NCBI GenBank assembly: GCA_001464275.1
Contig: LNFL01000170.1
Location: forward strand, 1-64,000
Direction: 5' to 3'
DNA from: Actinobacteria bacterium Ga0077560
Lineage (GTDB): Bacteria; Actinomycetota; Thermoleophilia; Miltoncostaeales; Miltoncostaeaceae
Length of the DNA stretch: 64,000 nucleotides
Shown here: positions 60,654 through 63,383 of the stretch, one piece after another
How the letters are laid out: every line of letters begins with the position of its first letter
Numbering within the stretch: the stretch's first letter is position 1
The notes under the pieces: model-generated
The model's database searches: none
Told to the model about the DNA's origin: nothing
The model's input: only the letters and a program-made list of their open reading frames with translations
Position numbers and translations under genes: made by a program

Positions 60654-63212
60654 GTGACCGCACGTTCGATCCTCGGCGCGTTCAGCGTTGTCCTGATCCT
60701 CGCAGCGACCGTCGTCGCCGCGACCGTGTCCGCGCGCTCGGCCGAGGACCAGGCCGCGCAGGACGACCTCATGCGCATGAGCCAGCTGGTCGGCGGGTTG
60801 CACGCCGAGACCGCCCGGGTGCTGGCGGTGGCCGAGAGCGCCGGCGCGCTCATCGCCGTCGGCGGCGCGGATCGCGACGAGGAGTTCCGGAGCTTCGGGC
60901 AGCGCATCGGCTACGACCCCGGCGTAGGGTACGTCACCTGGATGCCGCGGGTCACGGCCCGGGAACGCGCCGCATTCGAGGCGCGCACGGGCGAAGGGAT
61001 CTGGACGGCCAGCGTGCTCAACCCCGACCCGCTGCCGGCCCCGGCCCGCCCCGTGCACTTCCCGGTGCTGTGGACCGTGGCGCCCGGCGTGGAGTCGACG
61101 GTGGGCTTCGACCCGTACGCGTTCCCGCTGATGTCCGACACCGTCGACCGGGCGATCGCGACCGGGCGGCCCGCGGCCACCCAGCCGATGCCGCTCTCGT
61201 ACACCAACCTCACGCCCATGACCTCGGTGTTCGTGCCGGTGCGGCGGCCGGCGGGTCGCGAGGGGCCGGCGCTGCTGGGGCTCATCGGGGCGAGCATCAT
61301 CACCGAGGAGCTCGACTCGCTGCGGCCGCTGGCGCCCGGCAGCGTGTACGTGGCGGACGACGGCATCCCGCTCGCCGGGACGCCCATCGAGGGGCCCGTC
61401 CTGACCGCAGGGGTGGAGGTGGCGGGTCGCACGTGGAGCGTGACGATGGCCCGGCGCGAGGCCTCCACGCCCGCCCCCTGGTTCATCGGCGCAGCCGGCG
61501 CCCTGCTGGCGTTCTTGGTGGGCGGCCTGTTCGCCCGCAGCCACGTGCGGGAGCAGCGCGCGATGGCCCTGGTGGAGCGGCGACTCGGCGAACGCCTCGA
61601 CGCCGAGTGGCAGCTGCGCTCCGAGCGGGACTACTCCCGGGCGATCGTGGATGCGCTCCAGGACGGCCTGATCGTCCTTGACGCCGACGGCATGGTGATC
61701 CGGGCCAATGCGCACGTCACCGCGATGACGGGCTTCCCGCCCGAGTCGCTGGTGGGCGCCGTGGACCCGCTGCCGTTCGTGCCACGGGACGACGACGGCG
61801 CGGCGAAGGCGTTCGCGGAGCTGCGCACCCGGGAGCGGATGGAGGCCGAGGTGCGGCTGCGTCGCAGGGACGGGGGCGCCGCATGGGTCATCCTCAGCGC
61901 CGCCGCCCTGCACGACGCCGACGGCGTGGTGACCGGCCATCTGGTGGCGTTGAAGGACATCACCGACCGGCGCGCGGCCGAGCAGGAGCTCGCCGCCCTG
62001 GCGTCCGCGGACCCGCTCACCGGCCTGGCGAACCACCGCAGCTTCCATGACACGCTCGACCGGGAGGTCCTCGCCGCCGCCACCACCGGCAGCGAGCTGG
62101 CGGTCGCGGTGCTGGACCTCGACCACTTCAAGCAGATCAACGACGCCATGGGGCACCAGGCCGGCGACGACGCCCTGCGGGAGGTGGCGCGCCGGCTGCG
62201 GTCCTGCATCCGGGGCGGCGACACGCTGGCGCGGGTGGGCGGCGAGGAATTCGCCTGGCTGTTGCCGGGTGCGAGCGCGGAGGCGGCGTTCGCGGCGGTC
62301 GAGCGGGCCCGGCGTGCCGTGAGCGCCATGCCGGTGCGCGGCGTCGGCACCGTCACCATCTCCGCCGGGATCAGCGACACGGGACAGGCGGTGTCGCCCA
62401 GGGAGCTGTACCGCCTCGCCGACGGCGCGCTGTACTGGGCGAAGGCGAACGGCCGGAACCGCACCTTCGTCTACACGCCCGAGGTGGTTGAGGCGACCTC
62501 CGCCGAGGAGTATGCGACGCGCCTTGACCGGCTGCGCGCGATCAGCACCATCCAGGCGCTGGCCCGCGCGGTGGACGCAAAGGACGAGTCGACCCGCCGG
62601 CACTCGGAGCGGGTGGCGGACCTGGCGGCGGCGATCGCGCGGGAGCTGGGCTGGCAGCCCGACGACGCGGACATGCTCCACGGCGCGGGTCTGGTGCATG
62701 ACGTCGGCAAGATCGGCGTCCCCGACGCCATCCTGTTCAAGCCGGGGCGCCTCACGCCGCAGGAGTACGAGCAGGTGAAGCTCCACGCTGCGCTGGGGGC
62801 GCAGATCGTGGCCGGCGCGCTCACCGACCGGCAGGCCCGCTGGGTGCGGGGCCACCACGAGCACTGGGACGGCCGCGGTTATCCGGACGGCCTCGCCGGG
62901 GATGAGATCTCGGTGGGCGCCCGCATCCTGGCGCTGGCTGACGCGTGGGACGTGATGACCGTCGCCCGCCACTACTCGGCGCCGCGGGATCTGGCCGGTG
63001 CCGTCGCCGAGTGCGAGGCCATGTCGGGCACCCAGTTCTGGCCGGACGCGGTGGCCGCGCTGGTGCGGCTCGTGGAGGTCGGCGCGGTGGGCATTCCGAC
63101 CGCGTCCGAGGACGCGGAGGCCCCCTCGGACGCGGCGGCCCGATCGGGCTTTGCAGGGTCGCCGGGTTGGACTATCTTCGGCTCACCACGGAAAGGAGGT
63201 GATCCGGCTTGA
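60654..63212 (+). CDS. CHASE-PAS-GGDEF-HD-GYP protein
   Basis: CHASE-like GYDPGVGYVTWMPRVTARERAAFE; PAS; RVGGEEFAWLLPG; LVHDVGKIGVPDAIL...GHHEHWDGRGYPDGLAGDEI. Confidence 0.9.
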   Translation: MTARSILGAFSVVLILAATVVAATVSARSAEDQAAQDDLMRMSQLVGGLHAETARVLAVAESAGALIAVGGADRDEEFRSFGQRIGYDPGVGYVTWMPRVTARERAAFEARTGEGIWTASVLNPDPLPAPARPVHFPVLWTVAPGVESTVGFDPYAFPLMSDTVDRAIATGRPAATQPMPLSYTNLTPMTSVFVPVRRPAGREGPALLGLIGASIITEELDSLRPLAPGSVYVADDGIPLAGTPIEGPVLTAGVEVAGRTWSVTMARREASTPAPWFIGAAGALLAFLVGGLFARSHVREQRAMALVERRLGERLDAEWQLRSERDYSRAIVDALQDGLIVLDADGMVIRANAHVTAMTGFPPESLVGAVDPLPFVPRDDDGAAKAFAELRTRERMEAEVRLRRRDGGAAWVILSAAALHDADGVVTGHLVALKDITDRRAAEQELAALASADPLTGLANHRSFHDTLDREVLAAATTGSELAVAVLDLDHFKQINDAMGHQAGDDALREVARRLRSCIRGGDTLARVGGEEFAWLLPGASAEAAFAAVERARRAVSAMPVRGVGTVTISAGISDTGQAVSPRELYRLADGALYWAKANGRNRTFVYTPEVVEATSAEEYATRLDRLRAISTIQALARAVDAKDESTRRHSERVADLAAAIARELGWQPDDADMLHGAGLVHDVGKIGVPDAILFKPGRLTPQEYEQVKLHAALGAQIVAGALTDRQARWVRGHHEHWDGRGYPDGLAGDEISVGARILALADAWDVMTVARHYSAPRDLAGAVAECEAMSGTQFWPDAVAALVRLVEVGAVGIPTASEDAEAPSDAAARSGFAGSPGWTIFGSPRKGGDPA

Positions 63213-63241
63213 GTGATCATTGTGGAGGTGGCAGTAGCTAG
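63209..63241 (+). CDS. 10-codon mini-ORF (f)SDHCGGGSS*
   Basis: TTG AGT GAT CAT TGT GGA GGT GGC AGT AGC TAG, positioned behind an extended SD; overlaps upstream TGA. Confidence 0.45.
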   Translation: MSDHCGGGSS

Positions 63242-63317
63242 GGGACGCGTCCCCAGGTGCGCAGCCGCAGCACGGGGTCGGAACCCGTCCCCTTCAGCGA
63301 AACCACTGCTGCCACCG

Positions 63318-63361
63318 GGCCCGGGGTAGTCCGTGAATCCTCACGGCGCCCCGGGCCTTTT
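63318..63361 (+). terminator. Rho-independent terminator
   Basis: GGCCCGGGG-tagt-CCGTGA-atcc-TCACGG-cg-CCCCGGGCC-TTTT. Confidence 0.75.
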
Positions 63362-63383
63362 CACGTCCGGGTACGATCGCGGC

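Follow-up and report, generated by a model that had tools for sequence, protein, structure and literature searches.

Here, a structured RNA of about 177 nt was located at positions 63185-63361 of the forward strand of the window, the 64,000-nt stretch of an actinobacterial draft genome that was analysed. The element is a type II variant of the Ms_IGR-5 group without a pseudoknot (type II denotes the window's branch and type I most of the phylum). Comparison of homologous sequences demonstrates a conserved reading frame, a helix termed P1, a pseudoknot in type I, an unconstrained peptide and non-conserved neighbouring genes. The reading that we favour, and to which we give about even credence, is that of a free-standing, promoter-to-terminator RNA of this group that acts in trans, either as a switch driven by translation or as a ribosome trap, with the peptide as a by-product. 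An earlier note on this DNA had proposed a candidate structured RNA in which an extended anti-16S sequence precedes a mini-ORF of 10 codons, and the comparative frame and pairing tests bear this out.

Position, family and genomic context

The assignment of the element rests on its homologues, its alignment to an Rfam model and its fold, with a z-score of -4.9 and none of 200 shuffles as good. An extended Shine-Dalgarno (SD) sequence at 63190-63205 (+) was defined by matching to the 16S tail and by counts over the genome and the window. Within it, GAAAGGAGGTGATCC (63191-63205, +) is complementary to the 16S 3' tail over 15 nt; a match of this length is found once in the 3.8-Mb draft genome, and the second-longest match inside the window is 11 nt. 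The duplex between the RNA 5' end and the 16S tail has a calculated energy of -30 kcal/mol. The draft assembly of the window's genome contains no 16S gene. Genome G004, from the same family, has a 16S gene ending in GGCTGGATCACCTCCTTTC, which makes the complementarity genuine in G004. Because the 16S tail is identical wherever it was located, and the window's draft genome lacks it, co-variation between RNA and tail is untrackable.

A predicted -10 element, TATCTT, lies at 63173-63178 (+), and its position recurs across homologues: among 168 non-redundant elements, TANNNT stands at -22 or -23 relative to GGAGG in 102 and at any other position in at most two. The predicted transcription start is A63185, where 97% of homologues have an A; it is the base directly 5' of P1, and the element would thus begin earlier than the earlier note had it. 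At the other end, an intrinsic terminator (63317-63361, +; the equivalent of hairpin P4), assigned from sequence and fold in a family without the conserved GTCC pseudoknot loop, consists of a stem followed by TTTT that ends at 63361. The 15-nt complement, the mini-ORF from TTG to TAG, the closing stem and the terminator described previously were all confirmed in the sequence.

Since the scan of the window at Rfam gathering thresholds returned no match, the kinship of the element is visible only at a relaxed threshold, at which positions 63185-63364 align end to end with RF02471 (Ms_IGR-5; model positions 1-184) at 27.2 bits (E 1e-4), below the gathering cut-off of 45 bits. The nearest relatives of the window element score up to 44.5 bits, and L058, a relative from the window's class, passes at 45.5 bits. 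The earlier note did not recognise a known Rfam class; this holds as far as the cut-off is concerned, but not for the end-to-end relationship to RF02471 at 27 of 45 bits. A covariance model built from the 5' domain of the element (R1) joined it to RF02471 members above the cut-off, with which it shares the 5' 16S-tail complement, the in-frame mini-ORF and P1. RF02471 further resembles it in a GAGGUGGC segment and a 3' hairpin. The differences are that neither P1 nor a long P2 nor a pseudoknot appears in the structure line printed with the Rfam matches, and that the window's branch shows a one-base frame offset of GAGGTGGC and lacks the GUCC loop of the 3' hairpin that pairs with the mini-ORF and is conserved in type I. 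Judged by these alignments, the window element is related to RF02471 Ms_IGR-5, but distantly and below the threshold.

Searches at the DNA level found the element throughout the window's family. With R1, it was detected in 206 of 299 genomes at the level of the class and in 151 of 396 at that of the phylum, and most genomes with the element carry a single copy; R1 matches L184-L186, which were weak and inside coding sequence, were dropped as false. RF02471 at its own cut-off matched 25 of 296 genomes, and at this cut-off the model misses most class members. The search of actinobacterial genomes for compensatory changes, a check named in the earlier note, yielded homologues in which P1 covaries and three P2 pairs change on both sides. 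Ms_IGR-5-type transcripts have been detected in S. lividans and S. avermitilis (PMC8079986, PMC8780764) and in M. smegmatis (PMC10454040).

Upstream of the element, a gene for a CHASE-PAS-GGDEF-HD protein (60654-63212) overlaps the start of the RNA with its final 28 bases and stop codon, its TGA overlapping the TTG start of the mini-ORF (TTGA). A TPR protein gene lies downstream of the RNA in the window; in the window's genus, this gene apparently stands between the RNA and a tRNA gene at about 1.3 kb. In most of the window's family, tRNA-Glu comes next downstream; at loci L004-L012, L015, L017, L018 and L032, tRNA-Glu(TTC) is found about 180-240 nt past GGAGG, right after the terminator. Beyond the family, the neighbours include genes for a class IV aminotransferase, NAD ligase, gyrA, phosphofructokinase, a PLP enzyme, YceI, ABC and MFS transporters, a 2OG oxygenase and uracil-DNA glycosylase. 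Since no neighbour gene is kept, a role in cis is unlikely. The leader-peptide attenuator suggested previously would control the next gene, and the order of ORF, stem and terminator resembles a leader, with tRNA-Glu downstream in much of the window's family. However, the neighbours differ between families (tRNA-Glu, TPR protein, YceI, MFS transporter, oxygenase, NAD ligase, uracil-DNA glycosylase and others), some lie on the opposite strand, and the RNA has its own predicted promoter and terminator, so that we regard a cis attenuator as highly improbable. Known leader-peptide attenuators and rnTrpL-like dual-function sRNAs (PMC10117765, PMC7298713) likewise have a short translated ORF that overlaps the structure, but the element has no conserved downstream gene, regulatory codons or peptide.

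The mini-ORF and its peptide

The mini-ORF of the window element occupies 63209-63241 (+) and has 10 codons, from TTG to TAG; in actinobacterial elements generally, the mini-ORF spans 10-19 codons. ATG, GTG, TTG, CTG, ATT, ATC and ATA were accepted as starts 6-13 nt after GGAGG. The collection pattern demanded a stop 8-10 nt after AGG[TG], which pre-selected the presence of a stop but not its frame. In 167 of 168 elements, the stop shares its frame with an initiation codon at normal SD spacing, against 36 and 35 for the other frames; the frame is free of internal stops in 167 elements, against 29 and 59. The one element without a standard start codon in this frame at normal spacing is L055. 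The SD-to-stop distance modulo 3 is distributed 92/38/38 over the 168 elements; as it takes all residues, start and stop shift together. TAG, TGA and TAA interchange as the stop, and the start codons comprise TTG (81), ATG (25), CTG (18), ATT (15), ATC (15), GTG (10) and ATA (3), the weak starts CTG, ATT, ATC and ATA making up 31%. This comparison supports the mini-ORF as real. Loci L042, L158, L159 and L181, which the pattern missed, fit the mini-ORF plan by eye.

Selection acts on the frame and not on the peptide, since differences are even over the three codon positions: in similar type I elements, the codons before the structured part differ at positions 1, 2 and 3 in 376, 433 and 394 cases. 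Changes in the mini-ORF are mostly non-synonymous, with no third-position bias. In addition, GAGGTGGC is read in different frames by type I and type II, a one-base offset that is compensated before the stop, so the C-terminal half reads EVAAR in type I and GGGSS in type II. These observations weigh against a small-protein gene with the 10-19 residue peptide as its product, even though frame, start and stop are conserved and functional short peptides encoded by sRNAs are known elsewhere (rnTrpL; PMC10117765). We consider such a gene very unlikely. The pattern of changes suggests instead that, for this mini-ORF, being translated counts rather than the peptide made.

A second SD-like sequence, GGAGGTG, lies inside the frame at 63224-63230 (+), with 7 nt between the end of its GGAGG and the last sense codon. 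This distance is fixed in the collected elements at 7 nt (type II) or 8 nt (type I), partly owing to the selection pattern. ARAGORN found no tmRNA, and hence no tRNA-like domain of one, in the window.

Helices that reach into the mini-ORF

P1, which the earlier note had not noticed, links the first bases of the transcript (CCAC, 63186-63189, +) with the middle of the mini-ORF (GTGG, 63222-63225, +). Among 119 distinct type I elements, P1 cells are paired in 97.5% of cases, against 66% (maximum 73%) with partners shuffled, and two of its base pairs are seen in all four forms, CG, AT, GC and TA; type II shows the variants CG/TA/TG and AT/GC/GT. A local SD hairpin, ACCAC/GTGGT, was rejected because it suits type II but not type I, whereas P1 suits both. 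In type I, GGGACC of the mini-ORF also pairs with the loop GGTCCC of the 3' hairpin, forming a pseudoknot. This pairing reaches 90.5%, against 77.7% shuffled (maximum 80.5%), and one of its pairs occurs as GC 99, TA 10, CG 7 and AT 2 times; the 3' loop was aligned independently of the 5' part, and the P1 and pseudoknot shuffles ignore relatedness. In the alignments, P1 and, outside the window's branch, the pseudoknot into the mini-ORF covary strongly. In the window's family, the pseudoknot is absent and the 3' hairpin amounts to a simple terminator whose loop varies.

The end of the mini-ORF (GGTGGCAGTAG, 63227-63237, +) forms helix P2 with CTGCTGCCACC (63306-63316, +), with 10 pairs, three of which carry changes in both strands within the window's family. 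By duplex energy, P2 is only slightly more stable than with shuffled partners (-18.9 versus -17.9 kcal/mol), because the outer pairs hardly vary. Inside P2 (63241-63292, +), minimum free energy folding pairs GGGGACG (63241-63247) with CGTCCCC (63286-63292), and the alternative is a local hairpin at 63241-63254. Of the enclosed hairpins described previously, the strings are in place, but the GGGGACGCGTCCCC hairpin is ambiguous, since it competes with this long-range pairing. In type I (e.g., L035, L056 and L066), GAAUCC is conserved opposite the stop-codon helix, apparently as an unpaired P2 bulge and a possible binding site.

A structure that opens toward the 3' strand of P2 and P4 would also suit a conventional base-pairing sRNA, in which a freed strand, for example near the P2 3' strand or the P4 loop, pairs with mRNAs and is released by translation; Rfam annotates Ms_IGR-5 as an sRNA. 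Nevertheless, the P4 loop varies together with the mini-ORF strand, as expected of an internal pair, and we hold this explanation to be unlikely.

A proposed role for translation

We infer the following sequence of events, which comprises ribosome capture, unfolding and holding at the stop codon. The 5' end would offer a near-whole complement of the 16S 3' tail and thus catch 30S subunits. A captured subunit would then initiate slowly on the frame of 10-19 codons, often at a weak start codon. Since this frame traverses P1, P2 and, in most relatives, the pseudoknot, every translating ribosome would unfold the RNA. The opening of the closing stem by translation, proposed in the earlier note, is consistent with a frame whose overlap is conserved for P1, P2 and, outside this branch, the pseudoknot. 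Finally, the second SD-like sequence, GAGGTG, 7-8 nt before the last codon, could retain the terminating ribosome at the stop. Among the options first raised for the element, an sRNA or ribosome-sensing RNA is the preferred direction. MS_IGR-5 homologues in M. abscessus and M. smegmatis bear ribosome-protected reads (PMC4974804), which agrees with the proposed mechanism, subject to the authors' caution that such footprints, where they fall on non-coding RNAs, may stem from contaminating ribonucleoproteins.

Another explanation is a pure ribosome or 30S decoy, in which the long duplex with the 16S tail ties up subunits or protects the 16S 3' end, and the only task of the mini-ORF is to let bound subunits clear. 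The near-full 16S complement, its calculated duplex energy of -30 kcal/mol and its conservation in both examined phyla would fit such a decoy, and weak start codons would lengthen 30S binding. A decoy, however, has no need for a covarying P1, a pseudoknot, a P2 inside the frame or a frame-matched stop, which makes it rather unlikely compared with a translation-driven switch or trap. Extended SD-aSD initiation in Staphylococcus aureus (PMC13009471) is similar in its extended SD, non-canonical starts and small ORFs, but involves mRNA or uORF starts rather than a stand-alone structured RNA.

A similar plan is found in the Alphaproteobacteria. The Caulobacter sRNA CC2171 (RF01867), to which the window gave its second weak Rfam match, has GAAAGGAGGTGATCC at its 5' end, followed by a GTG mini-ORF and terminator-like hairpins, and at least 120 alphaproteobacterial loci (L202-L321) share the 16S complement, GTG and mini-ORF. 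The search pattern for these loci fixed the start but not the stop. Mini-ORFs have 18 codons in 35 of 37 members of subtype b and 14 codons in 12 of 12 of subtype c, and mostly 20-26 codons in subtype a. Stop identity varies in these RNAs (TAG, TGA and TAA are all used in subtype b) while its position is kept; the other frames scatter. Just 5' of the promoter in subtype b (L233, L237, L281) is an inverted-repeat-like sequence, ACACAAAATCTGTGT, perhaps a regulator site. In CC2171, however, the frame start is paired differently, the window scores 16.7 bits against a gathering cut-off of 75 bits, and the resemblance that could point to shared descent is confined to the 16S complement. The papers found on Ms_IGR-5 and CC2171 describe no mini-ORF. 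We tentatively suggest, as a possibility less secure than the trans-acting role itself, a widespread RNA type with an actinobacterial and a parallel alphaproteobacterial form. Such RNAs may pair with almost all of the 16S tail and in this way capture 30S subunits, and peptide-neutral translation of the mini-ORF may drive refolding or ribosome holding, reading out ribosome or initiation-factor status in trans.

In sum, an sRNA family of Mycobacterium and Streptomyces, long annotated without a function, proves to centre on a reading frame under selection purely as a frame, which makes its function directly testable. The element suggests that cells retain an RNA whose role is to be translated, and the alphaproteobacterial parallel hints that this solution may have arisen or spread more than once.
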